This document shows positions 36,905 through 57,448 of a DNA stretch of 57,448 nucleotides, in pieces. Both the position numbers and the translations under genes were made by a program. The stretch lies in assembly GCA_019119835.1 (NCBI GenBank), contig DWWE01000007.1, forward strand, positions 1-57,448, written 5' to 3'. Under the pieces are notes generated by a model, which was not told the origin of the DNA, searched no databases, and saw nothing but the letters and a program-made list of their open reading frames with translations. The stretch is from Candidatus Gemmiger stercoravium (lineage in GTDB: Bacteria > Bacillota > Clostridia > Oscillospirales > Ruminococcaceae). How positions within the stretch are numbered: the stretch's first letter is position 1; each line of letters begins with the position of its first letter.

Positions 36905-36911
36905 ATTCGGG

Positions 36912-39318: not shown

Positions 39319-39401
39319 AATGATACGCTCCTTTAATAAAGTGTAGGGTATGGAACGGACGAGACTGCACCCGCGCAGACAGGGAAACAGCTGTTATTGT
39401 C

Positions 39402-39430
39402 AGCTTACCATGCCGCGGGCGAAAAGGCAA
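39402..39430 (-). promoter_or_regulatory. Promoter of fucO
   Basis: Minus strand: TTGCCT (39425-39430), 17-bp spacer, TAAGCT (39402-39407). It may let fucO be expressed separately from rhaB. Confidence 0.65.
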
Positions 39431-39472
39431 CCATTCCCATGATAAATTTGCGTAAGGCGGTCCGGACCCGGC

Positions 39473-40300: not shown

Positions 40301-40358
40301 GGGATGTCCTTCCTTTCGTGACGTTTCAATCGTTTTTGCTGCGGATGGGAAACGGTCT

Positions 40359-41786: not shown

Positions 41787-43204
41787 TGGGGAAGCACCTC
41801 CTGGATCGCAAAACTCTGTTTGATCGCATCGCGGGCGGCCTGCAGATCGGTGTATTCGCCCGCCGCGATAAACTGGACCATCAGGTTGCCGAGGGCGGTG
41901 CCCTCGGTGGGGCCGGCGTAGACCGGCAGACCGGTGACGTTGGCGGCCATCTGGTTCAGGTATCCGTCCTGGCTGCCGCCGCCCACAATGTTGACGCTTT
42001 CGTAGGTTTTGCCGGTCAGGCTTTGCAGGGCGGCAATGGCGCGGCGGTAATCGTCCGCCAGCGAATTGTAAATGGCCTGCATCACCGCGCCGGTGGTGGC
42101 AGGAGCTGGGTACCCGGCCTCGGCGCAGGCGGCAGTGATCTCGCCGATCATGCTCTTTGGCGCAAGGAAGCGGTCATCGTCCGCGTTCACCAGGCCGGGG
42201 TAGCCGCCGGCTTCCTTCGCCGCAGCGATCAGCTCCGGGAAGGCGGGGCGGGTGCCATTGGGGGCGTGCTCGCCCAGCTCCCGCCGCACGGACTGGATCA
42301 TCCACAAGCCCATGATGTTTTTTAAGTAGCGGTAGGTGCCGCCGTAGCCGCCCTCGTTGGTAAAGTTGGCGGCGGCGCTGGCGGCGCTGGTGATGGGGAC
42401 GGTGTTCTCCACCCCCAGCAGGCTCCAGGTGCCGCTGGACAGGTAGACGGCCCGGTCATCCCTGGCGGGCACGGCCAGCCAGGCGGAGCCGGTGTCGTGG
42501 GTGGCGGGCAGCACTACGGTGCAGTCGAAGCCGACTTCGGCCTGCACTTCCGGCGTCAGACGGCCAAGAACCGTGCCGGGCTGGCAGATGGGCTGGAAAA
42601 TGCCCCGCGGCAGGCCCAGCCTGGCGATGAGTTCATCGTCCCAGTCCCGGCTTGCGGCCCCCACCAGGGCGGTGGTGGAAGCGTTGGTATACTCGTTGGC
42701 GGCCACACCGGTCAGCTTGTAGTTCAGGTAGTCCGGCACCATCAAAAAGGTCTTGGCCGCGTCCAGCTGGTCCGGGTGCTCCTTTTGCAGGGCGGCAAGC
42801 TGGTAGGCAGTGTTGAAGGGCTGGTACTGGATGCCGGTGCGGGCGTAGTGCTCGGCAAATGGCAGCACCGGCTCCAGCGCCTGGCGCACGCCCTCGGTGC
42901 GGCTGTCCCGGTAGGCCACCGTATCGCCCAGGATCTTCCCTGCCGCGTCCAGCAGCACAAAGTCCACGGCCCAGGTGTCAATGCCCACCGTTTCGGGCGT
43001 ATACCCGGCGTCCTTGCAGGCTTTCAGCCCGGCCAGGACGTTCTGCCACAGGCGGTCCATCTCCCAGCAGAGATGGCCGTTTTTCTCCGCCAGGCGGTTT
43101 TCAAAGCGGTAGACCTCTTTCAGGTGCATGCGGCCATCCTCCACCCAGCCCAGGATGTGCCGGCCGGAAGATGCGCCGATATCAATGGCAAGATGATAGG
43201 TCAA
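41783..43204 (-). CDS. rhaB: Rhamnulokinase
   Basis: 473-residue FGGY-family kinase phosphorylating L-rhamnulose at O1. RhaB-type features are the N-terminal LAIDIGASSGRHILGWV, GIDTWAVDFVLLD, AYRDSRT, TGIQYQPFNTAYQL, LPATHDTGSAWLAVPA, YLSSGTWSLLGVE and the C-terminal VNIVGGGSQDGYLNQMAAN. The start is a TTG (43204) with GGAGAGG upstream; no ATG fits the family N-terminus. First gene of the catabolic block, coupled by ATGA overlap to the isomerase. Confidence 0.95.
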   Translation of the reverse strand: MTYHLAIDIGASSGRHILGWVEDGRMHLKEVYRFENRLAEKNGHLCWEMDRLWQNVLAGLKACKDAGYTPETVGIDTWAVDFVLLDAAGKILGDTVAYRDSRTEGVRQALEPVLPFAEHYARTGIQYQPFNTAYQLAALQKEHPDQLDAAKTFLMVPDYLNYKLTGVAANEYTNASTTALVGAASRDWDDELIARLGLPRGIFQPICQPGTVLGRLTPEVQAEVGFDCTVVLPATHDTGSAWLAVPARDDRAVYLSSGTWSLLGVENTVPITSAASAAANFTNEGGYGGTYRYLKNIMGLWMIQSVRRELGEHAPNGTRPAFPELIAAAKEAGGYPGLVNADDDRFLAPKSMIGEITAACAEAGYPAPATTGAVMQAIYNSLADDYRRAIAALQSLTGKTYESVNIVGGGSQDGYLNQMAANVTGLPVYAGPTEGTALGNLMVQFIAAGEYTDLQAARDAIKQSFAIQEVLPQ

Positions 43205-43318: not shown

Positions 43319-44293
43319 TTATTTGTCAGAATTGCACAAATGGTCCCGATACTCTTTTGGCGTTATGCCAAATTGTTTTTTATAAATGTTGTAAAAGTAG
43401 CTGGTGGTATCGTACCCCACCGTCTCGGCAACGGCCTGCACCGGCAGTTTGGTGGTGCGCAGCAGCTGCTGCGCACGGTCCAGCCGCTTTTGCTGCAGCA
43501 GTTCCTTGAAGGTGCTGCCGGTGGCCCGGCGGATCAGCGCACTCAGGTAGGGCAGCGAAACATGGTACGTTTGCGCCACGCGGGTCAGGCTGGCCGAGCG
43601 GCAGTCGTCCTCGATCTCCCGCAGGGCAGCCAGCACCAGCGGGCTGCCCTGGCCCGGTTCGCCCTGCACCTCGATGCAGTCGGGGTGGTTGAGCAGGTCC
43701 AGAAGCAGCAGAGCCATGCGCATCTGGTTGGCACGACGGGCGCCCGGCTCGTTGTTCAAAAGGCTCCAGACCATGCTTTCCACCAGGTTCTGCACCGGCA
43801 GCAGCCCCGCAGTGCGGCAGAGCAGGTGGGTGATCTCGGCGCCGCCGGTCTTCAGCGTGCCCAGCAGAAACCGCCCCAGCAGATTGGAGGTGCCCACGAT
43901 CTGGAAGGCAAAGTCAAAGAACTGGGGCAGCACAATAAAGTTGACCGCCACATCCCCGACCTCGGCCCGCTGGATGGCATGGCTGGCCCGCTGGTTCAAA
44001 AACAGCAGTTCCCCGGCCTGCAGACGCACCGGCGTGCCGCCGCCAATGATATGCGTAGTGTGCCCTGCACACACATACATGATCTCCACATAATCGTGGC
44101 TGTGGCGGGGGAACGCCACAAACCGGGTATGGGGCCGTATGGTGATGAGCTGCCCCTGCCGCAGCAGCTTGGCGGCCTCGATCTCAAAGCCATGGCCGGT
44201 GGCGTACAGCGTGCGGTCCAGCGGTTCACCGTCCCGCAGTTTCTGCTCCTCCGGCGTGATGCGGGAAAGCTGTTCCAAGATCTCTGCGTTCAA
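43319..44293 (-). CDS. AraC family regulator of the rhamnose genes
   Basis: 324-residue regulator with an N-terminal cupin-type sugar-binding domain (about residues 50-140: FVAFPRHSHDYVEIMYVCAG, GELLFLNQRASHAI) and a C-terminal pair of AraC helix-turn-helices (SLTRVAQTYHVSLPYLSALI, LDRAQQLLRTTKLPVQAVAE, GYDTTSYFYNIYKKQFGITP). This is the architecture of RhaS/RhaR-like activators. The start is TTG (44293) after AAAGGGGG. Located directly upstream of rhaB, it is the natural candidate for rhamnose-dependent activation. Confidence 0.88.
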   Translation of the reverse strand: MNAEILEQLSRITPEEQKLRDGEPLDRTLYATGHGFEIEAAKLLRQGQLITIRPHTRFVAFPRHSHDYVEIMYVCAGHTTHIIGGGTPVRLQAGELLFLNQRASHAIQRAEVGDVAVNFIVLPQFFDFAFQIVGTSNLLGRFLLGTLKTGGAEITHLLCRTAGLLPVQNLVESMVWSLLNNEPGARRANQMRMALLLLDLLNHPDCIEVQGEPGQGSPLVLAALREIEDDCRSASLTRVAQTYHVSLPYLSALIRRATGSTFKELLQQKRLDRAQQLLRTTKLPVQAVAETVGYDTTSYFYNIYKKQFGITPKEYRDHLCNSDK

Positions 44294-44357: not shown

Positions 44358-47015
44358 TCAGGCGCGGTACAGCGCCACTGAGCCCGTCAGACCGCTGCCG
44401 CCGGTGGGTTTGGGGGCCAGCATTTTGCGGTAGCCGTCCAGCAGCGGGTAGCATTGGCGCTCGAGGGTGGTGGCGACCTCGATGGCAAGGATGTTCTCCC
44501 CCGCCCGGCCCGCGAGGTCGCAGGCGAAGGGCGGGGCGATCTGGATGCCGGCGCTCTGCCCGTTCAGGAACACCTCCACGCCCTCGGCGGCATCGGTGAT
44601 CGTCAGGCGCAGCGCGGCGGGCGCGTCCAGTGTGAAGGCCGTCTCATACCGTACAAAGCCGGAAAATTCGGGCTGCTCTTCGGCCAGGGCATCGGGCAGC
44701 GTGACCGGCACAGCGGGGCCGAAGGCCGGGTAGGCGGCCCCCTCGCAGGTGGCGCGGGTCCAGCCGGTCAGGGGGATGCTTTCCCCGGCCTGCGGGGCGG
44801 TGTAAAGCGCCGCGCCGGCCGGCGGCTCGCCCAGGACCAGGACACGCGGCTGCAGCGGCAGGATGTGAACCTTCACCTGCAGGCCCGCGTCCGTGTCGGC
44901 GGCGTCGGCAGGCTCGCAGCGGTTGGCCCAGGGGTCGTACCAACAGCAGGGACCGGAAAGCCCTGGCAGCGTCAGCGTGCCAACGCAGGGGGCGGTGCCC
45001 TCGTTGACGGCCAGCACCATCGTGGTATCGCCTTGCACGGTCAACAGACGCAGCCGGTCGTTTTGGGGTTCTAGCACCGGGGCCGCTACCCCGGCGGCGC
45101 GGATGGCCGCAGCCAGGTCGGCCGGGGCCACCACCGGGCAAGCGGCAAGCGCAGCCGGCAGCGGACCACCCTCGCACAGGGCTGCCGGCCGGCTGCCGGC
45201 AAAAACTACCGGCAGCCCCTTTTGGGACAGTTCCGCCAGGGCGTTGGCCGCAGCAGCAGGCATACGAGCCGCCCCCGGCACCACAAAGGCGCGGTAAGGC
45301 TGGCCGTTGACGATGAGCGGGTTGCCGAGCTCGGTCTTGTACCGGGCCGGTTCGCCGAACACATCGGCGGGCAGCGTGCGGCAGGCGATCTGGTCGTCGT
45401 ACAGCGGGCGCACGACCTGTTCAAAGGGCATCGCGCCGGGGTCGCACCACTCGGCCTCGCCGTGGTAGAGCACCGCCACCGGCGCCTCGTGCGCACCCGC
45501 ACTGGTCAGCGTGGCGACGCGGTTCATATAGGCCATGAGGCAGCCGAAGTGCCGGTACTGCGGGTTGTGGCCGTGGGCGTAGAAATGCGGCGGGCAGTCG
45601 GGGTCGGGGAACGCCTTGCCCGAGAACGCGTGCGGCACGAACCAGTTGACGCCGCGCACGAGGAAATGGTCGGCCAGATACTTTTCCAGCCGGACGCCCT
45701 CGGCCCAGCCGTAGTTGCCGAAGATCTCGCACATCGCGTTGCCGCCCTTGCCCGGCTCGATGGCCGCGGCGCTCTCGGCCAGCGTGGCGAGGCCGTAGTG
45801 GTAGAAGGTGCCGTTGCGGGGCTGGTGCATGTTGTTGACGCGGGGTTCATCCTCGCCCTGGGGCAGCACCTGGCCGCCGATGTCGTCGATGCCCGCCATG
45901 TCCTGGCCCTGCAGGCCGCGGAAATAGTGGCCGAGGCTTGCGCCGGTGCGGCAGTGCTGGCCGTCGTCCTCGATCAGGTGGCCGATGTAGCGCACGCCGT
46001 GGTCGTGGCACCAGGCGGCGAGCTGTTCGCTGAAATTGGCCCGCACAAGCCGGGTCAGGCAGTCCATGTAAACGGTGTGGATGCGGGCGGTGCCGGCGCC
46101 GGCGTCCTGATGGAACAGGCGAGGCAGCGCGGCGGCGAATCCCGGGCCGTACATGGCGGCGACAGCGGCTTCGAGCGGGGCGCTCCAGGGCAGGTCCTGG
46201 CCACAGCCCAGCGTGTTGCCCTTCTGGTACAAAAGGCCGTTGCCGAGTTCCGGCTCGTCGGAGAAGAAGCCCGCGATGGTCTTGCCGAAATCGGCGGCAT
46301 AGTGGGCCCAGTGGGGTTCGTACACCGCGTCGATGAGCAGCCGCACGCTGGCGGGGTCGGTCATGTTGATGTAGTCCCGGTGGCAGCCTGCGTTGCGGCT
46401 GACCGTGACCACCTGCAGCGTATACGCCCCGGCGGGCTTGTCCCAGTGCAACACGGTGCCCTGGACAAAGGGCAGAAGGTCGGTCACGGTGCCGTCCCCG
46501 GCCACGGCCTGCACGGTCAGCAGGCGGTCGGTGGCGGCATCAAAGCTGCGGGCGGGCGGCACCTTGGCCGCGAAAGCCTGCATCGGGTCGCGCGGGTCGA
46601 GCTTGGGCGGGTCCATGAGACCCTCGGCGCGCAGGTCGAGCGTCAGCGGCCCGGCGGCGGCGTCCAGCGGCTTCTCGTTGCCGAGGATGCTCTGGCGGCA
46701 CAGCGCGTCGGGGGCGGTCTTGACCGCGCCGTTGGCGAAGCCGGTCGGGAAGTGGCTGTCGTCCAGAATCCAGACCTGCATCCCGCGGCGGCGGGCCTCG
46801 TCCAGAATCACATCCATATCGGCCCACCACTTGGGGCCGCAGAAGTCGGGGTGGGGGCGGCTCTCAACGCAGACAGCCTTGCAGCTGGCCCCGTCTATAG
46901 CCGCCATCAGTTCCCGCAGGGTGGCTTCGTCCTCGCCGTGCTGCCAGAAAAAGGGCAGGATGTGGTTGTCGCTTTCCCCGGCCAGCAGCCGGGCAATGGT
47001 TCTATTTTGGGGCAT
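44358..47015 (-). CDS. GH106-like alpha-L-rhamnosidase
   Basis: 885-residue glycoside hydrolase resembling GH106. The N-terminal barrel begins with ILPFFWQHGEDEATLRELM and has VILDEARRRGMQVWILDDSH plus FPTGFANG, the layout seen in GH106 rhamnosidases; GFFSDEPEL and IGHLIEDDGQH are candidate acidic active-site segments, though I cannot assign catalytic residues. A C-terminal galactose-binding-like jelly roll follows (FVRYETAFTLDAPAALRLTI, VEVFLNGQSAGIQI). There is no signal peptide, so the enzyme is cytoplasmic. GGGGGAGAG precedes the ATG at 47015. It would release L-rhamnose for the adjacent catabolic genes. Confidence 0.78.
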   Translation of the reverse strand: MPQNRTIARLLAGESDNHILPFFWQHGEDEATLRELMAAIDGASCKAVCVESRPHPDFCGPKWWADMDVILDEARRRGMQVWILDDSHFPTGFANGAVKTAPDALCRQSILGNEKPLDAAAGPLTLDLRAEGLMDPPKLDPRDPMQAFAAKVPPARSFDAATDRLLTVQAVAGDGTVTDLLPFVQGTVLHWDKPAGAYTLQVVTVSRNAGCHRDYINMTDPASVRLLIDAVYEPHWAHYAADFGKTIAGFFSDEPELGNGLLYQKGNTLGCGQDLPWSAPLEAAVAAMYGPGFAAALPRLFHQDAGAGTARIHTVYMDCLTRLVRANFSEQLAAWCHDHGVRYIGHLIEDDGQHCRTGASLGHYFRGLQGQDMAGIDDIGGQVLPQGEDEPRVNNMHQPRNGTFYHYGLATLAESAAAIEPGKGGNAMCEIFGNYGWAEGVRLEKYLADHFLVRGVNWFVPHAFSGKAFPDPDCPPHFYAHGHNPQYRHFGCLMAYMNRVATLTSAGAHEAPVAVLYHGEAEWCDPGAMPFEQVVRPLYDDQIACRTLPADVFGEPARYKTELGNPLIVNGQPYRAFVVPGAARMPAAAANALAELSQKGLPVVFAGSRPAALCEGGPLPAALAACPVVAPADLAAAIRAAGVAAPVLEPQNDRLRLLTVQGDTTMVLAVNEGTAPCVGTLTLPGLSGPCCWYDPWANRCEPADAADTDAGLQVKVHILPLQPRVLVLGEPPAGAALYTAPQAGESIPLTGWTRATCEGAAYPAFGPAVPVTLPDALAEEQPEFSGFVRYETAFTLDAPAALRLTITDAAEGVEVFLNGQSAGIQIAPPFACDLAGRAGENILAIEVATTLERQCYPLLDGYRKMLAPKPTGGSGLTGSVALYRA

Positions 47016-47127
47016 TGTCTCTCCCCCGCCTTTCTTACAAATGTGCAGAAAAACTTTTGCTTCTTCTGTCCTGTGGCGCACGCTGTGCGCTGCTACGGTC
47101 TCCATACTTTTGAGGCACGCATCGTCA

Positions 47128-47982
47128 TTATAAATGTTCGTGCAGCCAGCGGGCGCTGACCTGTGCGCTCTTGACCGGGTCTTTGTCCACCCAGTTGCGG
47201 TGGCTTTCGAGCACGACGGCCTCAACGCCGTTTTCCTTGGCAATTTCGGCCCAGTGTTCGAGCGGCAGGTTGCCGGTGCCCAGTTCCATGCTGTCGGTTT
47301 TTAAGATTGGGGTCATCGCCGGTTTGCCGGCGGCAAGGCGAGTGCCGCGGTCGTTGATGTGCCAGAGCTTCATGCGATTTCCAAGGGTTTTCATCACGGC
47401 GGCCACATCGGCACCGCCCTCGGCAAACCAATAAGAGTCAAACTCAAAGTTGACGGCGTCGGGCTCGGTCTCAGCCAGCAGGATGTCATACCCGCGCTTT
47501 TCGCCCTCCACCCGCTGCAGTTCGCAGTTGTGGTTGTGGTAGAGCAGCCGCACCCCCTGCTCCACCAGCGCCGCGCCGGCTTTGTTCAGGCGTTTTGCCA
47601 GGTCGTGCCAGGCGGCTGCGTCGGCGTAGGCGAAGCGGTACATACCGGTGATGACCGCATAGCTTGTGCCGAAACTCTTGGCCTCGGCTGCGACGGCCGC
47701 GGCGTCCCGCTCGACACTGCCGAGATCGGTGTGCAGGCTGACGACCGAAAGACCCGATTCCCGCACGAGTTTGTGCCAGTCCAGTTTGCCGCCGTTGCCG
47801 GTGGGCATACCGGCGGCGCGGGTCAGCAGCCGCACCATGAGCCCGGTGGGGTGGATCATAAACCCGCAGAGCTCAATACCGGTGTACCCGGCATTCTTGA
47901 GGGCGGCCAGCGTCTGCCGGGCCTGGGTTTCATTGTTGAGGGCGTTGCCCAGCATGAACTGCTGTACGCCGGTTTGGATCAT
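47128..47982 (-). CDS. Sugar phosphate isomerase/epimerase (xylose isomerase-like TIM barrel)
   Basis: 284-residue AP-endonuclease-2/xylose-isomerase-like barrel. Characteristic strands and metal ligands are LAALKNAGYTGIELCGF, VVSLHTDLGSV, VRLLYHNHNCELQR, VNFEFDSYWFAEGG, KLWHINDRG and VEAVVLESHRNW. Members isomerise or epimerise free or phosphorylated sugars; the substrate is unknown here, but the neighbours suggest a plant-glycan sugar or inositol-like compound. It lies between the GH43 and GH106 genes in one minus-strand run. Confidence 0.85.
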   Translation of the reverse strand: MIQTGVQQFMLGNALNNETQARQTLAALKNAGYTGIELCGFMIHPTGLMVRLLTRAAGMPTGNGGKLDWHKLVRESGLSVVSLHTDLGSVERDAAAVAAEAKSFGTSYAVITGMYRFAYADAAAWHDLAKRLNKAGAALVEQGVRLLYHNHNCELQRVEGEKRGYDILLAETEPDAVNFEFDSYWFAEGGADVAAVMKTLGNRMKLWHINDRGTRLAAGKPAMTPILKTDSMELGTGNLPLEHWAEIAKENGVEAVVLESHRNWVDKDPVKSAQVSARWLHEHL

Positions 47983-47997: not shown

Positions 47998-49809
47998 TTA
48001 TAAGGCAAACACGGTGCCGGGGGTCACGCCGTTTTCGTTGAAGCTGTCCACGGCGATGTAATAGGTCTGCCCGGCGACCAGGGTACTCAGGGTCGCTTCG
48101 CTTGCGCCGTAGACAAGATGGCTGAGGTAGAGCTTATCCGGCGCGGTGCCATAGCGGATGTTGACGCCCTGCGCGCCCATCTCAGAAAGCGGCTGCCAGC
48201 GCACTACCGCGTCCAGTTCACCGACGCGCTCGGCCGCAGCTTTGGCCGGGGCGGGTTTGGCCCTGCCGCCGTTGCCGAACACCCGCAGCCCGGCAATGCG
48301 CAGTGGCTGGCCGTAGGGCAATGCGACGCCCACCACCCGCACATAGCGGGCGGTGACACCGGTTTCGTACTCGTAATACCCGTTGGAGCATTCCCGCGCC
48401 ACCGTTTCCAGCGCATGCCAGGCTTCGCCATCGGCGCTGATCTCAAGGGTATAGCGGGAAATCTGGGGTTCCAGCTCGATGTGGCGGGTGCGGCGGTCGT
48501 CGCCGTAGGCTTCGAGTGGGAACTCCACCGCCACATCCTGGTCGGCCAGGTTGACCTGCACGGCGCGCACGTCCATGACCCGCCCGAGGTCGACGGCCAG
48601 CCACTGGCCGGGGAAGGCATCGGCCGCGCTCCACCAGGTGCGGATGTTCTCATCGACGGCCAGCGCCGGGTCGCTGCCCGCCGCAGTGGACGAGGCAAAC
48701 GCCGGTTTGGCGTAGGAGAGCAGCATCCATTCGGGCTGCCAGGCCGCCGGGTCGAACCGCCCGGCCGGGATGCGGTGGGGGTACGAGGCAAAGTTCTGGT
48801 TGCAGTAGAGCACGCCGTCGGCGTCGAACCCGGCCGGGAACAGCCCGACGCGGCGCTCGAAGTCGTGGTTGACCGAGATACGCATCGTGGTGGCGTGCCA
48901 GAAATTGCCGTGTCTGTCGGCAACCGTGCTGCCGTGGCCCGCACCGGTGATGAACCCGCCGGTCACGGCCGAGAACGGGTTGGCCGCCTGCCGCGTGAAG
49001 GGGCCCAGGGGGCTCCCGCCCACATAGACGCCGTCGGCGTAGGTGTTGTACTGGGTGCCGGGGCAGGCGTACTGCAGGTAATATTTGCCGCCGTGCTTGG
49101 TCATGTAGGCCCCCTCGAGGTAGGGCTGGCCCACGGCCAGGAAGATTTTGGTCAGCGCCTCCACCGGGTAGCCGCCCAGGTCGGTGACGCCCGCGGGCAG
49201 TTTGAGGGTCTTGGTCTCGGGGTCGAACAGGGGGGCCAGGCTGCGGTACATGACGCTGGACTCCTTGTCCACCACGCCGTTCTCCCCCGGGCGCTCGTAG
49301 CCCAGGTGTTCAGGGTCGCCGTGGATCAGCGCCGTTTTCTCGCCGATGGGCTCCAGGGTCTCCCGGTCCAGCTCCACGCCCCAGATCGGCTCGGTGTTGG
49401 TGCAGCCCCAGTAGAAATAGAGGCGGCCGTCGTCATCGAGAAAGAGGTCGGGATCCCAGAACGGGAAAGGTGCGGCCACCTGCTCGAATTTTTCATGCAG
49501 CGGGTCGGCGCTGCGCAAAATCGGGCAGTCCTTGCTGCGGCTGGACGCGCAGAAGTAGAGGTACTCCCCCACCTGCCGCACATCGGGGGCATAGTCGTAG
49601 ATCATCAGGTCGGGATCGGCGTGGAAGCGCCAGCCGAGCAGATCATCCGAATAGAAAAAGCCCGCCGACATCGAGACAAACAGGTAGTAGGTGCCCTTGA
49701 AATACACGAGCGTCGGGTCGGCCCCTTCGCGGAAGGCGTAGCGGCGGCCCTGCTCGTTCATGTGCTGGTAGCGGTAGGGCAGATCCAGCGGGTTGCAGTA
49801 GGTGTTCAT
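47998..49809 (-). CDS. GH43 glycosidase with discoidin-like and FN3-like domains
   Basis: 603-residue enzyme. A five-bladed propeller (about residues 1-340) has the GH43 acidic triad: Asp31 (EGADPTLVYF), Asp121 (FWDPDLFLDDDG) and Glu232 (LEGAYMTKHGGKYYLQYA). It is followed by an F5/8-type (discoidin/CBM32-like) domain (about 360-505, ALAVDENIRTWWSAADAFPG) and a fibronectin type III-like C-terminus. Likely beta-xylosidase or alpha-L-arabinofuranosidase. No signal peptide. The start overlaps the GH2 stop by 4 nt. Confidence 0.9.
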   Translation of the reverse strand: MNTYCNPLDLPYRYQHMNEQGRRYAFREGADPTLVYFKGTYYLFVSMSAGFFYSDDLLGWRFHADPDLMIYDYAPDVRQVGEYLYFCASSRSKDCPILRSADPLHEKFEQVAAPFPFWDPDLFLDDDGRLYFYWGCTNTEPIWGVELDRETLEPIGEKTALIHGDPEHLGYERPGENGVVDKESSVMYRSLAPLFDPETKTLKLPAGVTDLGGYPVEALTKIFLAVGQPYLEGAYMTKHGGKYYLQYACPGTQYNTYADGVYVGGSPLGPFTRQAANPFSAVTGGFITGAGHGSTVADRHGNFWHATTMRISVNHDFERRVGLFPAGFDADGVLYCNQNFASYPHRIPAGRFDPAAWQPEWMLLSYAKPAFASSTAAGSDPALAVDENIRTWWSAADAFPGQWLAVDLGRVMDVRAVQVNLADQDVAVEFPLEAYGDDRRTRHIELEPQISRYTLEISADGEAWHALETVARECSNGYYEYETGVTARYVRVVGVALPYGQPLRIAGLRVFGNGGRAKPAPAKAAAERVGELDAVVRWQPLSEMGAQGVNIRYGTAPDKLYLSHLVYGASEATLSTLVAGQTYYIAVDSFNENGVTPGTVFAL

Positions 49810-52025
49810 GCGTTGGCCTCCGTCTTTTTGATGCCCTGCAAAATCCGGTTGAGCTGCTTGATACTCTCCTCGTCGGCGCCGCTCTGTTTGAGCAGGCTGA
49901 CCAGCGTGATCCGGTTCATCATCCGCTGTAAAGCCGGGTTGTCCTTGACCGTCTCGGCGATTTCGCCGTGGCTCTCGGCGCCCTTGGCCATCATCTGGTC
50001 AATGATTGCGGCGGCCTCGGGGTTCTGGCGGATCTCGCCCAGCGTATCCAGGATGGAATAGCAGTTCGGGTCGGCTTCCCCCTTGTCGAACCAGTTGGTC
50101 ACGCCGGTGGAAGCCGCCCGGCCGGGCTTGCGGTAGGCCGGGTTGGGCTCGGCCACCTTGCGCACCAGCATGACGCTGGTGCAGTCCTCGGCCCGCGCTT
50201 CAATCGTGTGCTCACCCGAAATGGGCACCTGGAAGCTGAACACCACATGTCCCTGCGCGGTGCCGAACAGCTTGCCGTCGACATACAGACTGACCTCGTT
50301 CTGGTTGGAGTACACCTTGATCTCGGTGACCTCCTCGGTGCGGTCCACATACCGGCTGCCGCAGAGGTGAACAAACGGATCGGTGTGGTTCCAGGCCGCT
50401 TTGTACAGATAAAAAGCATCCTTCTTGAGCTGGCGGTCGAAGGTGACAAGGCCCTTCTGATTCTCACCGTTCTTGCCGCCCTCGTCCCGGCCGTCCGCGC
50501 CAAAATCGAACAGGTTCCACACATGGGTGGCCCACAGCCAGGGGCGGGCTTCGATCATGCGCAGCATATGCTCGTGGTAGACGCACTGGTAGCTCTCGGT
50601 GTAGTCGCCCTTCTCCGGCGTCGGGCTCTGATACGCCGGGTTGGCGTCGGCGCCATACTCCGAAAAGCCGATGCAGCGGTCGGGGAATTTGGCGTGGTAT
50701 TCGTCAAAGAACTCGTCGTTCTGTTCCAGTTCGCCCAGGTACCAGCCGAAGTAGAGGTTGTAGCTGTTGACATCGGGAATTTCGAGGATCGGGCTGTCGA
50801 TGTCCAGCATAAAGACATTGGCCATCGTGGTGGGGCGGGTGGTGTCGAGTGTATGGCACAGGTCATTGAGGGCGCGGTGGTTTTCCAGCAGTTCTTCGTT
50901 GACGGCGGAGGCGGCCGTGATCTCGTTGGAGAGCCCCCACACCGCGATGCAGGGGTGGTTGTAATTCTGCACGATCAATTCGGTCATCTGGGAAAGGGTG
51001 TTTTCCCGCCCATCGTGCATGTGCATCGTGATATAGGGGATCTCGGCCCAGACAATGAGACCATTTTCATCGCAGAGGTCGTAGAAGTATTGGGTGTGCT
51101 GGTAATGAGCCAGACGCAGCGTGTTGGCCCCCAGTTCCTTGATGATGGCCATATCCTCCTCCATCATGGCGGGGGTCAGCGCGTTGCCGGCGCCCTTACG
51201 GTCCTGGTGGCGGGAGACCCCGCGCAAAGGATAGCTGCGGCCGTTGAGCAGAAAGCCCTTCTGCGGGTCGATCTCAAATTTCCGGCAGCCGAACCGGGCA
51301 CTGACCGCGTCCCCGCTGGACAGGCTGGCGGTGGCCGTGTAGAGGTAAGGGTCGTTCAGGCCGTCCCAGAGGTGCACATTCTCGATCGTAAAGTCGGCGC
51401 GGGCGTAGCCGTCCGCAACCGGCACGGTTTGGGTCTGGCCTGCCAGGGCAAAGGTGACCTCGGCATCATGGGCCGGGCCTTCTACCCACGCCTCGGCCAT
51501 GACGGTGGCGGTGCGTGTTTCCAGATCCACCACCGGTGTGATCTTCAGCCCCGGTCCGCCGTGATACCCCAGCGCAAAATGGGTCTCAGGCACCAAAATC
51601 AGGCGTACTTCCCGGTACAGCCCGCCGTAGAAGGTGAAATCCGCCTGCTGCGGGTAGACAGTCCGGCTGCGGGCATTGCTGACCGAGACCGCCAATTTGT
51701 TGTGGTCCTTCAAGTGATCGGTCAGATCCACCCGGAAGGTCGAATACCCGCCGGCGTGCTCGGCCAGCTTTTCGCCGTTCAAATAGACTTCGGCTGTCAT
51801 GGCCGCGCCCTCAAATTCCAGCCAGACCCGGCTGTTTTCCGTCGTTTCCGGCCGGTCCAGGTCGCGGAGATACCAGCATTTGCCCCGGTAATAGTCGTCG
51901 CCGCCGTCCTGGCCGTCCTCGGCGTTCCAGGTGTGGGGCAGGGTGACGGGCACGCCCGCACCGTCGGCGGGGTGTTCGGCCTTGATGAAGGTCCAATCCT
52001 GATTCAGAGAATGAATGGTACGCAT
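49806..52025 (-). CDS. GH2 family beta-galactosidase/beta-glucuronidase
   Basis: 739-residue exo-glycosidase with the usual GH2 order: sugar-binding jelly roll (1-145, ending FYGGLYREVRL), immunoglobulin-like domain (150-250) and TIM barrel with acid/base Glu368 (AVWGLSNEI) and nucleophile Glu456 (CIGFSEYGAD). A C-terminal immunoglobulin-like region and a helical tail of about 100 residues (GEIRQNPEAAAIIDQMMAKG) extend the core. Cytoplasmic (no signal peptide). The ATG at 52025 follows AAAGGAA. First gene of the GH2-GH43-epimerase-GH106 run; divergent from an AraC regulator 126 bp away. Confidence 0.92.
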   Translation of the reverse strand: MRTIHSLNQDWTFIKAEHPADGAGVPVTLPHTWNAEDGQDGGDDYYRGKCWYLRDLDRPETTENSRVWLEFEGAAMTAEVYLNGEKLAEHAGGYSTFRVDLTDHLKDHNKLAVSVSNARSRTVYPQQADFTFYGGLYREVRLILVPETHFALGYHGGPGLKITPVVDLETRTATVMAEAWVEGPAHDAEVTFALAGQTQTVPVADGYARADFTIENVHLWDGLNDPYLYTATASLSSGDAVSARFGCRKFEIDPQKGFLLNGRSYPLRGVSRHQDRKGAGNALTPAMMEEDMAIIKELGANTLRLAHYQHTQYFYDLCDENGLIVWAEIPYITMHMHDGRENTLSQMTELIVQNYNHPCIAVWGLSNEITAASAVNEELLENHRALNDLCHTLDTTRPTTMANVFMLDIDSPILEIPDVNSYNLYFGWYLGELEQNDEFFDEYHAKFPDRCIGFSEYGADANPAYQSPTPEKGDYTESYQCVYHEHMLRMIEARPWLWATHVWNLFDFGADGRDEGGKNGENQKGLVTFDRQLKKDAFYLYKAAWNHTDPFVHLCGSRYVDRTEEVTEIKVYSNQNEVSLYVDGKLFGTAQGHVVFSFQVPISGEHTIEARAEDCTSVMLVRKVAEPNPAYRKPGRAASTGVTNWFDKGEADPNCYSILDTLGEIRQNPEAAAIIDQMMAKGAESHGEIAETVKDNPALQRMMNRITLVSLLKQSGADEESIKQLNRILQGIKKTEANA

Positions 52026-52151
52026 AGATGCTTTCCTTTCTTGGAAGATGAGAGTCAGCGAAAAAAAATGTAGGGAGTGCGGTGTTCTTTCCTGGCCGCA
52101 GCCGTCTTTCTGTGGTATGATAGGAGCAACCGCAGGAAAGGAGACCACCCC

Positions 52152-53363
52152 GTGGATATTCATGAAAAAGTATCGCTTTTGCAGGAACTTGTGGCCTGCT
52201 GTGACGCCATTTCCACCTGGTGCTATGACGCCAAGGGGGAACTGCTGTTTTCCAACTGTACCGACGAGACGGTGCTGAACACAGCCTTTTCGGCTTTCGG
52301 CTGCCGCAGTATTCTGATGGAGCACACAAACATTTGGAGTAATCCGTTCCTTTTGGGAACCTCGCTGGGGCTTGTCTGGGGCGCAGCATTTGAGCGGGAG
52401 GACGGTGTACTGCGGCGGTTCTGGCTGCTGGGGCCGGTGTTCTACGCCACCACCACCAAGGGGCAGATCGAGCTGGGGTACGACCTCTACCGCGGGCTGG
52501 AGCTGAGCATCGCCTGGAAGGAGCAATTCATGCAGGCGGCCTCCCGCCTGCCGGTCGTGACCAGCGAGCTGCTGGGGCGTTACCTGCTGATGCTGCACTA
52601 CTGCCTGACCGGGCAGACACTGCATTACAGCGACATCGTCATGCCCACCGAACTGCTTCGCCCCGCCAAACCTGCCGAGCCGACCAAGCGGGACCGGTAT
52701 CAGGTCTATGCAGCCGAGCGGGCGCTGCTGGACATGGTGCGCAACGGGGACCTCAACTATGCCGAGGCTTTCAGCAATTCCAGCCTGCTCAGCAGCGGGG
52801 TGCCGGTATCCGGTCCCGACCCGCTGCGCCAGGTAAAATCCAGCATCACGGTGTTCACCAGTCTTGTCTGCCGCGCCGCCATAGAGGGCGGCGTCAGCCC
52901 GGAAGAAGCCTATTCGCTGGGGGACGCCTACATCCAGCGGGCCGAAAATGCCCGCAGCCAGCAGGAACTGCTGAACCTGCCCGCCACGATGTACGACGAT
53001 TTCATCCATCGCGTCCATCGCTGCCGCACCAACCCGCGCTACAGCCAGGCCGTGCAGAAATGCATCGATTACATTGAGCTGCATCTGGAAGAGCGCATCC
53101 GCGCCGCCGACCTGGCCAGGCAGACCGGGTACGATGAATACTACCTGACCCACCGCTTCAAAAAGGAAACCGGATATGCGGTTTCCGATTATGTGCGGTT
53201 CGCCAAGATTGAGCGGGCCAAGGTCCTGCTGAGTTCCACCGCGCTGAGCGTGCAGGAGATCGCGGACAAGCTGGGCTTTTCCAGCCGAAGCTATTTCATC
53301 CGCAGCTTTCGCGGCGTGACCGGGCAGACGCCTTCTGCCTGGCGGGCCCAGGCGGACCAATGA
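52152..53363 (+). CDS. AraC family regulator with N-terminal sensor domain
   Basis: 403-residue regulator: N-terminal sensor-like domain (VSLLQELVACCDAISTWCYD, GTSLGLVWGAAFE, LLGPVFYAT), a helical middle region, and a C-terminal AraC DNA-binding domain (DYIELHLEERIRAADLARQ, YYLTHRFKKETGYAVSDYVR, GFSSRSYFIRSFRGVTGQTP). The start is a GTG (52152) after AAAGGAG; ATGs further upstream do not fit. It is divergent from the GH2 operon and is the best candidate to bind the paired motifs between the transporter and GH1 genes. The remnant at 36912-37952 is a paralogue. Confidence 0.87.
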   Translation: MDIHEKVSLLQELVACCDAISTWCYDAKGELLFSNCTDETVLNTAFSAFGCRSILMEHTNIWSNPFLLGTSLGLVWGAAFEREDGVLRRFWLLGPVFYATTTKGQIELGYDLYRGLELSIAWKEQFMQAASRLPVVTSELLGRYLLMLHYCLTGQTLHYSDIVMPTELLRPAKPAEPTKRDRYQVYAAERALLDMVRNGDLNYAEAFSNSSLLSSGVPVSGPDPLRQVKSSITVFTSLVCRAAIEGGVSPEEAYSLGDAYIQRAENARSQQELLNLPATMYDDFIHRVHRCRTNPRYSQAVQKCIDYIELHLEERIRAADLARQTGYDEYYLTHRFKKETGYAVSDYVRFAKIERAKVLLSSTALSVQEIADKLGFSSRSYFIRSFRGVTGQTPSAWRAQADQ

Positions 53364-53370
53364 CCACCAC

Positions 53371-53405
53371 GGGGAGGGACGGCGTGAGCCGCCCCTCCCT
53401 TTTTG
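53371..53405 (+). terminator. Terminator after the AraC regulator
   Basis: GGGAGGG...CCCTCCC with an inner GGC/GCC around a GTGA loop, followed by TTTTT. It separates the regulator from the convergent transporter gene. Confidence 0.88.
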
Positions 53406-53411
53406 GATGGG

Positions 53412-54881
53412 TCACTTGCTTTGCAGCGCCTGCTTCTTGGCGGCGATCCGTTTCTGCACGTCCACCATGTCCTTCTTGGTGAGCTTGTAGAACCGCATCG
53501 CGATCAGCGAGATCACATAGCCGATGATGGGCACGCCGAAGGTGAGGAACAGCGTCATCGCCTTGATGGCCGGGGTGGGCGCGTCGGTGGGCTGGGGCGT
53601 CGTGTGGACATAGCCGATCAGCGACACGCAGAAGGTCGCGATGGTGATGCCGAAGGAGGAGATCACCTGGTCGATGAAGTTGTAGGTGGCCGTGACAATG
53701 CCGGGGATGTACTTGCCGGAGGCGTCCAGCTCATAGTCGACAATGTCAGCGCGCATCGCGCCGTTGGCCGTCGTGATGCACATTTTGGAGCCGTTGTTCA
53801 GCAGCAGAATCGCAAAGAACAGGCACAGCAGCACCATGTTGGTGCGGATCGCGCTCATATCAATGGCGGCGCAGAACACGATGCCGAGCACCGAGATCAC
53901 CACGCACACCCAGGTCCAGGTGACGGTGGCCTCCTTGTTGCCGTGCTTGCCGCAGTACCGCGCGCCGAAGATCGCAAACACGATGCTGGGCAGCATCGAC
54001 AGCATGGACACGATGGTGCCGAACTGGATGTTGCCGATCAGGATGCCGAACATCATCGTCGAGATGATGGTCTGGCTGTTGACCTGCTGGGCCAGCTTGT
54101 CGGCCACGGCGGACAGCGTGTACAACTGGAACGGCCGGTTGGTCGCGAGGAAGTGGAACATATCCTTGAGGCCCACGTCGTCGCCGCCGGCCGTGATGCC
54201 TTCAAAGTTTTCGGGCTTGTCGACCGGCGTCAGGCCGATGCAGGCGATCAGCGTCAGCACCCAGGCCACCGCCACATAGACGATGCAGGTCAGGGACAGC
54301 ATATCCTTGGTGTACTGGTTGCCGAACATCGGCAGAATGACCATGGTGGAGACCAGAGACAGCGCCATCGGGAACGCGTAGTTGTACACGGTCGCCCAGA
54401 CCTGCACGGTCGGGCGCTGGCGCGGGTCGTTGGTCATGACGGCGGGCAGCATGTTGCCGGCAATGTCAAAGATCGAGTTGCCGACGATGTTGACCATGTA
54501 CAGGATGATAAACAGCACCACGCTCTGGGTCTTGCCCGAGAACCAGACAAACAGCATCAGCATGGCGATGCTGCGGATCGTAAGGCCCAGCAGCATCAGG
54601 ATGCGCAGTTTGCCGAAGCGGGTGTGCAGCTTGTCGATCCAGACGGCCAGAAACGGGTCGATGACGCCGTCGAACCAGCGGGTGGCTGTCAGGATCACGC
54701 CGGCCAGCGCCAGGGCGATGCCATAGCCCTCGTTGGCTACATAACTCATCAACCCCACCAGGGAGTAAAATGCCATCGCCGCGCCGCCCTGCATCTCGGC
54801 AATGGCGATGCACCAGGTGGGAACGCGGCGATACTGTACGCCGTCGATCTCACTCTGGGTCGGTTTCTTTGTCTGTGCCAT
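53412..54881 (-). CDS. GPH-family (MelB-like) sugar:cation symporter
   Basis: 489-residue MFS transporter of the glycoside-pentoside-hexuronide group with about 12 transmembrane helices. The family signature is visible as ATRWFDGVIDPFLAVWIDKL, then RFGKLRILMLLG; MANIVGNSIFD-type and DIVDYELDASGKYIPGIVTA segments are also typical. It probably imports the oligosaccharides cut by the locus hydrolases in symport with sodium or protons. AGGAGG precedes the ATG. Transcription should start from the activator-dependent promoter at 54935-54963. Confidence 0.9.
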   Translation of the reverse strand: MAQTKKPTQSEIDGVQYRRVPTWCIAIAEMQGGAAMAFYSLVGLMSYVANEGYGIALALAGVILTATRWFDGVIDPFLAVWIDKLHTRFGKLRILMLLGLTIRSIAMLMLFVWFSGKTQSVVLFIILYMVNIVGNSIFDIAGNMLPAVMTNDPRQRPTVQVWATVYNYAFPMALSLVSTMVILPMFGNQYTKDMLSLTCIVYVAVAWVLTLIACIGLTPVDKPENFEGITAGGDDVGLKDMFHFLATNRPFQLYTLSAVADKLAQQVNSQTIISTMMFGILIGNIQFGTIVSMLSMLPSIVFAIFGARYCGKHGNKEATVTWTWVCVVISVLGIVFCAAIDMSAIRTNMVLLCLFFAILLLNNGSKMCITTANGAMRADIVDYELDASGKYIPGIVTATYNFIDQVISSFGITIATFCVSLIGYVHTTPQPTDAPTPAIKAMTLFLTFGVPIIGYVISLIAMRFYKLTKKDMVDVQKRIAAKKQALQSK

Positions 54882-54934
54882 AGTTTTTTCCTCCTTTTGT
54901 CCGGGGTTGCGGTGCAGCCCCGCTCTCTGCCCTT

Positions 54935-54982
54935 ACTGTAGCACAGGCGTGCGCCTCAAGAAATGCAATAATTCAAGTCAAA
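54935..54982 (-). promoter_or_regulatory. Transporter promoter with adjacent 16-bp regulator motif
   Basis: Minus strand: TTTGACTTGAATTATT (54967-54982), 3 nt, weak -35 TTTCTT (54958-54963), 17-bp spacer, -10 TACAGT (54935-54940). The layout mirrors that of the GH1 promoter exactly. Confidence 0.7.
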
Positions 54983-55027
54983 ATTCATTTATTCATCATG
55001 TTGTGGCTGCGTATGTAATGATTGCAC

Positions 55028-55075
55028 TTTGTCTTGAATTATTACCTTTTTTCTTTGGGATCGGTGCGGTATGCT
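55028..55075 (+). promoter_or_regulatory. GH1 promoter with adjacent 16-bp regulator motif
   Basis: Plus strand: TTTGTCTTGAATTATT (55028-55043), 3 nt, weak -35 TTTTTT (55047-55052), 17-bp spacer, -10 TATGCT (55070-55075). A motif touching a poor -35 is the usual class II activator arrangement. Confidence 0.7.
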
Positions 55076-55144
55076 GTACACACAGCGGACCGCGAACCGC
55101 CTGGTCCGATGCAATTTGATGGTTTGGTTGGAAAGGAGTTTCCC

Positions 55145-56452
55145 ATGACACAGTTTACCCCCGGATTTTTGATCGGCGCCGCCACCGCCGCCCACCAGGT
55201 GGAGGGCAACAACATCCACAATGACTGCTGGGCGCAGGAACAGATGGAACACTCCAGCTATGTCGAGCCCTCGCTGGACGCCTGCGACCATTATCACAAG
55301 TATGCCGAGGACATCCGCCTGATGGCCGGGGCCGGGCTCAACGCCTACCGCTTTTCCATCGAGTGGGCCCGCATCGAGCCGGAGGAGGGCTGCTTTGACG
55401 CGGCGGAACTGGAACACTACCGGGATGTGATCCGCTGCTGCCAGGCACACGGCCTGGAACCCATCGTGACGCTGCACCACTTTTCCAGCCCGGTCTGGCT
55501 GATCGCCAAGGGCGGCTGGGAGGCCGAGACAACCCCGGCCGACTTCGCCCGCTATGTGCGGTATGTGATGGAGAACCTTGGCGGTGAGCTGCGATATGTC
55601 TGCACCATCAACGAGGCAAACATGGGCGTGCAGGTCGCGGCCATTGCCGAGCGGTATAGAAAACAGATGATGAAGATGGCCGCCCAGGCCCAGGCAGGCG
55701 GGCAGTCCCCCGATGGGTCGGTGCAGATGGGCATGAACTTCCAGAAGATGATGGCCAATCAGGCACGAATCGCCGCCGAAAACAAGGCCGTGTTCGGCAC
55801 CGAGACGCCCCAGTGTTTCACCAATCCCCGCACGCCTCACGGCGATGAGCTGGTCATGGAAGCCCACAAGGCTGCCCGCGCCGTCATCCGGGAGGTCTGT
55901 CCCGGTGTCAAGGTCGGCCTGACGCTGAGCCTGCACGACATCCAGGCCCTGCCCGGCGGTGAGGAAGAAGCCGCCAAGGTCTGGGAGGAGGAATTCACCC
56001 ACTACCTGCCCGCCATCGAGGGGGACGACTTCCTTGGCGTGCAGAACTACACCCGCGCCCGTTATGACCAAAACGGCAGCATGACCGCCCCCGAAGGCGC
56101 CGAGCTGACCCAGATGGACTATGAGTTCTACCCCGAAGCCCTCGAACATGTGCTCCGTCGGGTGGCCAAAGATTTTCATGGCGACCTGATCGTGACCGAG
56201 AACGGCATCGCCACCGCCGACGACGCCCGCCGTGTTGCCTTCATCGAGCGGGCGCTTGCCGGCGTACAGAACTGCCTGGCCGACGGCCTGCCGGTGCGCG
56301 GCTACTTCCACTGGAGCCTGATGGACAACTTTGAGTGGCAGAAGGGCTTTGCGATGCAGTTCGGTCTGATCGCCGTAGACCGCGCCCACGGCCAGACCCG
56401 CACCCCCAAGCCGAGTTTGGCGTTCCTGGGGCGCTATGCCGCCAAAGCCTGA
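55145..56452 (+). CDS. GH1 family beta-glycosidase
   Basis: 435-residue retaining beta-glycosidase of family GH1 (beta-glucosidase, 6-phospho-beta-glucosidase or beta-galactosidase). N-terminal FLIGAATAAHQVEGNN, YRFSIEWARIEP, acid/base Glu157 in CTINEAN, nucleophile Glu352 in LIVTENGIA and GYFHWSLMDNFEW are all present. The substrate cannot be told from sequence; no PTS genes are nearby, so an unphosphorylated substrate is likelier. Cytoplasmic. AAAGGAG precedes the ATG at 55145. Divergent from the transporter with a shared control region. Confidence 0.93.
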   Translation: MTQFTPGFLIGAATAAHQVEGNNIHNDCWAQEQMEHSSYVEPSLDACDHYHKYAEDIRLMAGAGLNAYRFSIEWARIEPEEGCFDAAELEHYRDVIRCCQAHGLEPIVTLHHFSSPVWLIAKGGWEAETTPADFARYVRYVMENLGGELRYVCTINEANMGVQVAAIAERYRKQMMKMAAQAQAGGQSPDGSVQMGMNFQKMMANQARIAAENKAVFGTETPQCFTNPRTPHGDELVMEAHKAARAVIREVCPGVKVGLTLSLHDIQALPGGEEEAAKVWEEEFTHYLPAIEGDDFLGVQNYTRARYDQNGSMTAPEGAELTQMDYEFYPEALEHVLRRVAKDFHGDLIVTENGIATADDARRVAFIERALAGVQNCLADGLPVRGYFHWSLMDNFEWQKGFAMQFGLIAVDRAHGQTRTPKPSLAFLGRYAAKA

Positions 56453-56475
56453 CCCCCCGGACCGCAGCAACCAAA

Positions 56476-56525
56476 CGCCCCGGCCGTCCGATTGCTTCTG
56501 CAGCCGGATAGCCGGGGCGCATTTT
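56476..56525. terminator. Bidirectional terminator between GH1 and the TetR gene
   Basis: Perfect 9-bp CGCCCCGGC/GCCGGGGCG stem (56476-56484, 56511-56519) with further pairing inside (TCCG/CGGA). It is followed by CATTTTG on the plus strand and TTTGG on the minus strand, and serves two convergent genes. Confidence 0.85.
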
Positions 56526-56537
56526 GTTCAAAACGGT

Positions 56538-57098
56538 TTATTGCGGCATGGCGGCCAGGGCGGCGCCCTCGCACAAGGCGGTAATCACGGCGGCCACCTG
56601 CCCGGGTTCGGTCTGCATCCCGCTGCGCAGCCAGTACTGGATGATGCCGCCCGCCCCGGCGGCCAGGAACACATTGCGCATCGTCTGCTGGGGTTCGCCT
56701 GCGGCCGGCGCCATATTCCCCTGCCGTGTATTCATATACCGGAAGCACCGCTCCACCATTGCGTACAGAAACCGCTCATCCTGGTTTTGCCGTGCCATGA
56801 CGCCCAGCAGACTGTCGTTGTCCCGCAGCGCGCAGAGCGCCGCCGTCATTGTCGCGGCGGTTCCCTGCGCCTGCGTTGCCTGCAGCAGTTCTTCCAGCAG
56901 CTCAAGCCCGCGCTGTTCCAGCTGTTCCATCAGGTCAAAGCAGTCCTTGTATTGGCGGTAAAAGGTGCTGCGGTTGATCTGCGCCAGGGCGCAGACCTCC
57001 TTGACCGTGATGCGCTCCACCGGTTTCTGGCGCAGCAGCTGCAAAAACGCGTCGGTGATCACCTGGCGGGTGTAGCGGGTCCGCAGGTCAGTTCGCAT
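56538..57098 (-). CDS. TetR/AcrR family regulator
   Basis: 186-residue repressor-type protein: N-terminal TetR helix-turn-helix (RYTRQVITDAFLQLLRQKPV, ITVKEVCALAQINRSTFYRQ, YKDCFDLMEQL) and a helical ligand-binding domain resembling TetR_C in clostridial regulators. The ATG at 57098 follows AAAGGAG; upstream in-frame codons belong to the intergenic region. Divergent from a MATE efflux gene, which it very likely represses, together with itself, through the shared control region. Confidence 0.9.
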   Translation of the reverse strand: MRTDLRTRYTRQVITDAFLQLLRQKPVERITVKEVCALAQINRSTFYRQYKDCFDLMEQLEQRGLELLEELLQATQAQGTAATMTAALCALRDNDSLLGVMARQNQDERFLYAMVERCFRYMNTRQGNMAPAAGEPQQTMRNVFLAAGAGGIIQYWLRSGMQTEPGQVAAVITALCEGAALAAMPQ

Positions 57099-57168
57099 GG
57101 CGGTGCTCCTTTCTGCAACAGATCCCGCCCCGGTGCCGCACAGCGGACACACGGGCGGAAAGTAACGG

Positions 57169-57226
57169 TTGTCTGCGGGGTCTGCTTTCAGTATACTGGG
57201 CACAGGGAAAAAATGCAACATATGTT
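57169..57226. promoter_or_regulatory. Back-to-back overlapping promoters and palindrome between tetR-type and MATE genes
   Basis: Plus strand: TTGTCT (57169-57174), 17 bp, TATACT (57192-57197). Minus strand: TTGCAT (57213-57218), 17 bp, TATACT (57190-57195). The two -10 elements share the palindrome AGTATACT. A second palindrome, AACATATGTT (57217-57226), overlaps the minus -35 and is a candidate operator. Confidence 0.72.
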
Positions 57227-57270
57227 TTTTATCGTTCACCCTGCTGCTTTTTGGGAAAGGAGGATCCCCT

Positions 57271-57448
57271 ATGCAAAACAGTGAAGTGTTGTTCCGGGAA
57301 AAGCCCATCTGGCGGGCGATCTTCTCGCTGGTAGGGCCGTCGATCCTGTCGGTGCTGGTCATGGTGATCTACAACATGACCGACCTGTTCTTCATCGGCC
57401 TGCTGCAGGACATGGCCCAGACCGCCGCGGTGTCGGTGGTGGGGCCGG
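57271..57448 (+). CDS. MATE family efflux transporter, cut by the window end
   Basis: First 59 codons of a multidrug and toxin extrusion transporter. After a short cytoplasmic lead the first helix reads WRAIFSLVGPSILSVLVMVI and continues YNMTDLFFIGLLQD, the usual MATE N-terminus. AAAGGAGG lies 7 nt before the ATG. The rest of the gene is outside the window. Divergent TetR gene suggests drug- or metabolite-inducible expression. Confidence 0.88.
   Translation, partial: MQNSEVLFREKPIWRAIFSLVGPSILSVLVMVIYNMTDLFFIGLLQDMAQTAAVSVVGP

Follow-up and report, generated by a model that had tools for sequence, protein, structure and literature searches.

Mirrored box-pair operators between divergent sugar transporter and GH1 glycoside hydrolase genes, predicted targets of an AraC-type activator

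The locus raises the question of how a sugar transporter gene and a divergently oriented GH1 glycoside hydrolase gene could be controlled together, and by which protein. In the window, by which we mean the whole stretch of 57,448 nucleotides analysed here, the two genes are separated by a control region of 141 bp (54935-55075) that holds two promoters placed back to back. The genes on which the argument depends are the following.

47128-47982, minus strand: xylose-isomerase-like TIM barrel protein (AP_endonuc_2, AP2 below), member of the conserved cluster; Pfam and gene neighbourhood
47998-49809, minus strand: GH43 enzyme with an F5/8 type C domain, member of the conserved cluster; Pfam and gene neighbourhood
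49806-52025, minus strand: GH2 enzyme, member of the conserved cluster; Pfam and gene neighbourhood
52152-53363, plus strand: AraC-type regulator of 403 aa, the proposed activator; Pfam, structure prediction and gene neighbourhood
53412-54881, minus strand: MFS_2 (GPH-like) sugar transporter, a proposed target; Pfam
55145-56452, plus strand: GH1 glycoside hydrolase, a proposed target; Pfam

An earlier note on this DNA described two copies of a 16-bp motif in the control region, each followed by 3 nt, a T-rich -35, 17 bp and a -10. Read from the sequence, this layout is right in both directions, and the two copies, TTTGACTTGAATTATT at 54967-54982 on the minus strand and TTTGTCTTGAATTATT at 55028-55043 on the plus strand, had been placed and oriented correctly to the base. 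The 3 nt between the 16-mer and the -35 are GCA on the minus side and ACC on the plus side. With up to three mismatches allowed, these are the only matches to the 16-mer in the window, where 0.20 would be expected by chance, and none of 100 shuffled windows reached two matches. The whole 2.36-Mb genome has no exact copies other than these two; there are 2 places with 2 mismatches and 16 with 3.

The 16-mer as such is not what related genomes keep. At up to three mismatches it is absent from the loci of 13 relatives, and no match at up to two mismatches was found across 1.3 Mb of loci of the wider set. Across 67 gaps from related loci, the closest match differs at 3 positions in 2 gaps, at 4 in 10 and at 5-7 in 55, which rules out the literal 16-mer as the conserved unit. 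The 16-mer consists of an inner box plus spacer, and its TTTGWCTT part falls in the poorly conserved spacer. What is conserved is its AATTATT end together with a second box 20 bp further out, an outer box that is absent, in each promoter, from the earlier note's description. A simple 36-bp inverted repeat in the region was considered as well; it is real, yet it is the sum of the two mirrored operators. The elements of the control region are then as follows.

54935-54940, minus strand: -10 of the transporter promoter (TACAGT, with TGC before it), the best -10 towards the transporter; from sequence
54958-54963, minus strand: weak -35-like TTTCTT, 17 bp from the -10; from sequence, little conserved among divergent loci
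54967-54973, minus strand: inner (promoter-proximal) box AATTATT, ending 26 bp before the -10, a putative activator box; from sequence and comparison
54987-54993, minus strand: outer (distal) box AATAAAT, 20 bp from the inner box, a putative activator box; from sequence and comparison
54994-55016, no strand: linker of 23 bp joining the outer boxes; constant in length in 17 of 26 divergent loci, mostly variable in sequence
55017-55023, plus strand: outer (distal) box AATGATT of the GH1 promoter, a putative activator box; from sequence and comparison
55037-55043, plus strand: inner (promoter-proximal) box AATTATT of the GH1 promoter, ending 26 bp before the -10, putative; from sequence and comparison
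55047-55052, plus strand: weak -35-like TTTTTT, 17 bp from the -10; from sequence
55070-55075, plus strand: -10 of the GH1 promoter (TATGCT), the best -10 towards GH1; from sequence

Neither promoter was listed by a generic sigma-70 scan of 53300-57448, in keeping with their weak -35 elements: the -10 boxes are fair, and the pair of near-consensus hexamers that defines a sigma-70 consensus promoter is lacking. The arrangement agrees instead with a class II operator, in which two direct-repeat half-sites lie about two turns apart (20 bp in both directions in the window) and the inner half-site adjoins or overlaps the -35 (the inner box ends 3 nt ahead of the -35 position in both directions in the window). 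AraC-type activators typically sit on such box pairs beside a weak -35.

The boxes were recognised by eye in the upstream regions of 12 gaps, the window included, anchored on the best -10; the GH1 orthologues in the relatives are 61-83% identical over their full length. In most of these gaps, both directions show a pair of AATWWTT boxes with a spacing of 20 bp, and the inner box stops 26 bp short of the -10. The boxes stand head to tail and are often followed by G. On the GH1 side of L090 the box pair was not seen, and the top-scoring -10 is not always the one with the boxes. The comparison was extended by a genome scan with the regulator alignment, from which 80 loci were kept, the best 80 of 174 confirmed relatives, out of records labelled Gemmiger, Subdoligranulum, Faecalibacterium, Fournierella, Acutalibacter, Oscillospiraceae, Lachnospiraceae and others. 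With 25 transporter|GH1 gaps taken in both directions, 42 transporter|AraC gaps taken towards the transporter, and the window, the upstream set came to 94 directions, or 90 once near-duplicates were removed.

Boxes paired at 20 bp and followed at 25-28 nt by a -10 are present in 74 of the 90 non-redundant upstream regions, against a mean of 1.0 and a maximum of 4 under 200 dinucleotide shuffles, a comparison that overstates the evidence because the regions are related by descent. The earlier expectation that the motif would be conserved beside orthologues of the regulator thus fails for the literal 16-mer and holds for the two-box operator. By group, the pair was found in 23 of 26 regions in the GH1 direction, 18 of 26 in the transporter direction and 33 of 38 of the transporter|AraC set; the transporter|GH1 groups are partly in-sample since the consensus was chosen by eye on those gaps; the transporter|AraC regions were not used for the consensus, though one of them, L132, had been seen earlier. 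The pair is missing in 16 of the 90 regions (8 of 26 towards the transporter, 3 of 26 towards GH1 and 5 of 38 transporter|AraC). A better argument than the shuffle count is the sharp optimum in spacing: a 20-bp spacing gives 74 regions, compared with 37 at 19 bp, 40 at 21, 9 at 18, 7 at 22 and 14 at 23. The position relative to the promoter is also fixed, as the gap from the inner box to the -10 peaks at 26 (48 regions) and 27 (25 regions). Comparison of the related loci therefore gives good support to the putative box-pair operator as a real element.

In the transporter|AraC group the sites extend to about GAATTTTTGTAACTTT and NATTWTTGGCTTTACG, and the G after the boxes carries 0.7-0.8 bits in divergent loci and 1.3-1.9 bits in distant loci. 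Such extended sites would be expected if each monomer reads two adjoining grooves, its second contact reaching the -35.

Profiles built from the operator gave a second line of evidence. Profile R1, made from 33 sites with the window's two among them, finds at E<=10 only these two sites in the 2.36-Mb genome and likewise within the window. Profile R2, made from 31 sites with those of the window left out, recovers the window's two sites at E 2.4e-4 and 2.2e-3 and has no other match at E<=1 in the genome. By computation the operator is thus rare in its own genome, and it also co-occurs with the regulator. We searched 35 genomes of the genus, counting the regulator as present on a match at E<=1e-60 and scoring 150 first-look candidates per genome. 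R2 matches at E<=0.005 occur in 11 of 13 genomes with this AraC and in 1 of 22 without it, a cut-off that was fixed only once the match list was known; the next matches, in G033 (0.0077) and G005 (0.0084), fall in genomes without the regulator, and at E<=1 some match is found in 31 of the 35. G019 is the sole regulator-less genome with a match at E<=0.005, and its contig stops 78 bases past the transporter match, at the place where the regulator would be expected. In G010 and G017 the regulator is present with no match at E<=0.005, and their promoters resemble the distant type by eye.

There are 27 matches at E<=0.005. Transporter|GH1 gaps account for 23, three others precede GH3-type genes, and the last is upstream of a gene for a GH78-type rhamnosidase. 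They arise partly by construction because many R2 training sites come from these genomes: many of the 23 belong to the training set or are closely related to it, and the loci of G019 and G004 are similar to training loci, so that the matches clearly outside the training set are those in G000 and G006 and the four extra sites. The latter precede a GH3 gene in G004, another in G001, and a GH3-type gene (275 nt upstream of the ORF) and the GH78-type rhamnosidase gene in G027. The profile search also covered 41 distant loci, 682 kb of sequence that had contributed nothing to training, and gave 15 matches at E<=0.1 there; all 15 lie between the regulator and the transporter and face the transporter; the other 26 loci gave no profile match at this threshold. 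A similar site thus stands directly between regulator and transporter in distant loci.

These data bear on whether a specific activator is needed at all. The boxes, of purely A/T consensus, could be UP elements for the alpha subunit of RNA polymerase, and the inner box, at about -45 to -39, occupies the expected position of a proximal UP subsite. We consider this very improbable. The 20-bp spacing and the G after the boxes are conserved, a general element would be expected at many promoters whereas in this genome the profiles recover the window's two sites alone, and across genomes the occurrence of sites largely follows that of the regulator gene (11/13 versus 1/22, at a cut-off chosen afterwards) instead of being general.

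The regulator at 52152-53363 is a clear member of the AraC/XylS family. Its C-terminal HTH_18 domain matches PF12833 at 78.1 bits against a cut-off of 33.6, and it also matches AraC-type domains in the PDB. The N-terminal half has no Pfam match; it is predicted to be mixed alpha/beta and weakly PAS/GAF-like, followed by a helical middle and then the HTH domain (mean pLDDT 85.2, pTM 0.49). Foldseek returned 19 matches at E<=0.001, which are AraC-type proteins, and otherwise only weak GAF/PAS-like matches (3eea, E 0.07; 3vol, E 0.22). The best-scoring NCBIfam model is TIGR04094, the YSIRK-targeted surface antigen transcriptional regulator family (residues 116-398, E 5.8e-40). The score of 137.4 bits is below the curated cut-off of 200, so the protein falls outside that family, and its gene, unlike those of TIGR04094, sits with glycoside hydrolases.

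Could another regulator bind the boxes? Two further candidates of AraC type are encoded in the window, the paralogous protein at 36837-37952, which is 45% identical to that at 52152-53363, and a cupin-AraC protein at 43319-44293. We regard either as a very unlikely owner of the boxes: at E<=10 profile R1 has no site in the window near either gene, while the family of 52152-53363 (the one family scanned) is found beside the target genes in distant loci. As an observation in its own right, the genes at 38170-43204 beside the second AraC-type regulator encode an Fe-dependent alcohol dehydrogenase, a class II aldolase, an isomerase-like protein and an FGGY kinase.

Our preferred reading is that the two promoters depend on an activator and that their box pairs are bound by dimers of the AraC-type protein at 52152-53363, leading to class II activation of both genes; judged from sequence and its conservation, we hold this to be highly probable. 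The regulator would sense a sugar derived from the substrate, a dimer would bind each box pair, the bound protein would contact RNA polymerase at the weak -35, and transcripts of the transporter and of GH1 would both be started. We infer binding by the protein, its dimeric state, activation as the direction of the effect and a sugar as the inducer from this pattern. The earlier note had named the same protein as the most likely single activator of uptake and GH1, and the comparison favours that assignment.

By analogy with known systems the operator would be ordinary in principle, a case of AraC-type class II activation of divergent sugar genes. E. coli araBAD I1-I2, melAB and rhaBAD are examples of class II activation in the AraC/XylS family. 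As in those systems, the half-sites lie about two helical turns apart with the inner one by a weak -35, and a local sugar regulator would serve divergent target promoters. Unlike them, the boxes of the window are 20 bp apart (the half-site spacing of araBAD is 21 bp) and A/T-only in consensus, there are two complete operators in a fixed mirror array, and the regulator gene does not lie between its targets. In Caldicellulosiruptor bescii, the consulted parts of one study list PecR, PecR2, HemR, AxuRS and XylQ as AraC-type regulators of carbohydrate loci; each of the four single-component AraC-type sugar regulators is reported there to have tandem sites ahead of candidate promoter elements, and all four are read as activators (PMC8579813). 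The resemblance lies in an AraC-type regulator of a sugar locus with tandem-repeat sites upstream of promoters; the genes and motifs are different, and a mirror array at fixed distance does not figure in those parts of the study (PMC8579813).

What is new at this locus is that two operators are held at a fixed mirror spacing despite differing leader lengths. The operators of a transporter|GH1 gap point in opposite directions, outwards from the middle, and 17 of 26 divergent loci have exactly 30 bp from outer box to outer box, giving boxes at 20-30-20 bp. Two of the other loci are without an array, and the rest have distances of 40, 41, 41, 32, 3, -20 and -20 bp. The three loci with 40 or 41 bp have about one helical turn more, but their minus-side boxes are weak (10/14). 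The search that required a -10 gave implausible arrays for L105, L110 and L141 (3, -20 and -20 bp). In a four-box scan over 8-70 bp that dropped this requirement, L110 gave 30 bp, L105 a tie that includes 30 and L141 47 bp; 30 bp was the unique best spacing in 18 of the 26 loci, tied best in 2, and neither in 6. The mean four-box score was 24.0 at 30 bp and 17.6-22.2 at every other spacing. We give these counts without a probability, the mirror loci being related by descent.

Around the array the sequence is free to vary. In the 17 mirror loci the whole gap measures 224-370 bp, and the leaders 29-133 nt on the GH1 side and 37-102 nt on the transporter side, lengths that are approximate because start codons were projected from the window's proteins; any one leader length is common to at most 2 of the 17 loci on the GH1 side and 3 on the transporter side. 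The varied leaders and gaps therefore indicate that the linker is held while its surroundings change. The length of the mirror array is kept across genomes labelled Oscillospiraceae and Lachnospiraceae, in which leaders and most of the linker sequence have diverged. We aligned the array cores of 19 of the 26 loci, taking every locus where 30 bp was best or tied best except L105; 14 of them were non-redundant, and these 14 cores, which share less than 65% identity (mean 43%), have a common layout. The boxes carry 1.09-1.25 bits per column, partly by construction because they were located by their match, and the linker and spacers about 0.35 (spacers 0.34-0.36). Within the linker, two positions with T stand out at 1.1 and 1.5 bits.

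The simplest reading of the fixed distance would be that the two box pairs lie on compatible helix faces and interact, so that the two activator pairs may act as one complex. As an extension of class II activation by the AraC-type protein, two dimers could touch across the 23-bp linker of the 20-30-20 bp array, and a tetramer-like complex would switch both promoters, firing uptake and hydrolysis as one locked, all-or-none event. We propose this tentatively, as a serious possibility that we nevertheless rate below even chances. It would account for the preference for 30 bp where leaders vary, for the extra turn of the 40/41-bp loci and for the layout common to divergent cores. On the other side, the two T positions could mark a further contact and so another cause of the kept linker, 6 of 26 loci prefer another spacing, and loci of common ancestry are not fully independent. 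Moreover, where the regulator adjoins the transporter, a single operator is kept and has no mirror partner at a fixed distance: 11 of 42 transporter|AraC loci gave any array, at scattered distances.

The same fixed distance between the outer boxes would suit a scheme like that of E. coli AraC, a light-switch in which a dimer without sugar bridges the two inverted outer boxes 30 bp apart and keeps both promoters off, and with sugar shifts to the direct pairs and activates. This we find unlikely, as nothing in the analysis points to repression and the loci with the regulator beside the transporter have no second outer box at a fixed mirror position. Activation from both box pairs by the protein at 52152-53363 remains our preferred reading.

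To our knowledge a fixed mirror geometry of two operators is unusual. A full-text literature search, judged by title and abstract start and covering few subscription papers, returned no report of this operator, its recognition pattern or a fixed mirror array. The box pair offers a candidate DNA recognition pattern for a family of regulators whose genes accompany, in many Clostridia, a conserved cluster of GH1, GH2, GH43 and GPH-like transporter genes; named carriers include Faecalibacterium prausnitzii ATCC 27768 and Gemmiger formicilis ATCC 27749. The pattern allows targets to be predicted, and the extra GH3 and GH78 sites in relatives widen the predicted regulon. The fixed mirror spacing provides a simple, testable case of divergent promoters that are perhaps coupled through one activator complex.

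A single conserved cluster of GH1, transporter, GH2, GH43 and AP2 recurs in the fourteen stretches that were mapped, and in 11 of them GH1 and the transporter diverge. The position of the AraC gene differs: it may follow GH1 immediately, precede GH1, or stand between the transporter and GH2 as it does in the window; the stretch of L094 is too short to place it. In the 80 regulator loci the transporter was seen in 74, GH2 in 70, AP2 in 57, GH1 in 56 and GH43 in 55, and 74 of the 80 have at least two of these five genes within the fetched flank, several contigs being short. The GH2 enzyme is nearest to a beta-glucuronidase model, below its cut-off.

In the window the AraC gene lies on the opposite strand between the transporter and GH2-GH43-AP2, genes that directly follow the transporter in several relatives. 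No operator was found ahead of the window's GH2 operon, and no sigma-70-like promoter in 51950-53500. Since none of the 19 loci that share the window's gene order carries an operator ahead of GH2, and the convergent ends of transporter and AraC are at most 6 bp apart in 8 of 22 loci, the transporter transcript may run antisense through the AraC gene into GH2 as a noncontiguous operon. The idea is weakened by a terminator-like site that lies within the AraC gene on the transporter strand, at 53186-53165 (chance expectation 1.1), and by hairpin-plus-T candidates of varying quality on the transporter strand in 10 of 22 loci, with none in the window's own gap.

Some minor observations may be added. 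The extra operator sites in relatives lie at L193:4575-4636, L194:2785-2847, L195:6031-6092 and L192:4393-4454, before GH78-type and GH3-type genes, and that of L194 is on a different contig from the main locus. At the cluster end, an ORF at 44358-47165 (about 935 aa) matches no Pfam family and resembles an alpha-L-rhamnosidase model only weakly (E 6.9e-13, well under the cut-off). Finally, the window's transporter is 93-99% identical in protein sequence to those of L072, L073 and L074, while their GH1 proteins are only 67-83% identical to that of the window and the intergenic region is very different, a contrast that suggests recombination or transfer within the cluster.
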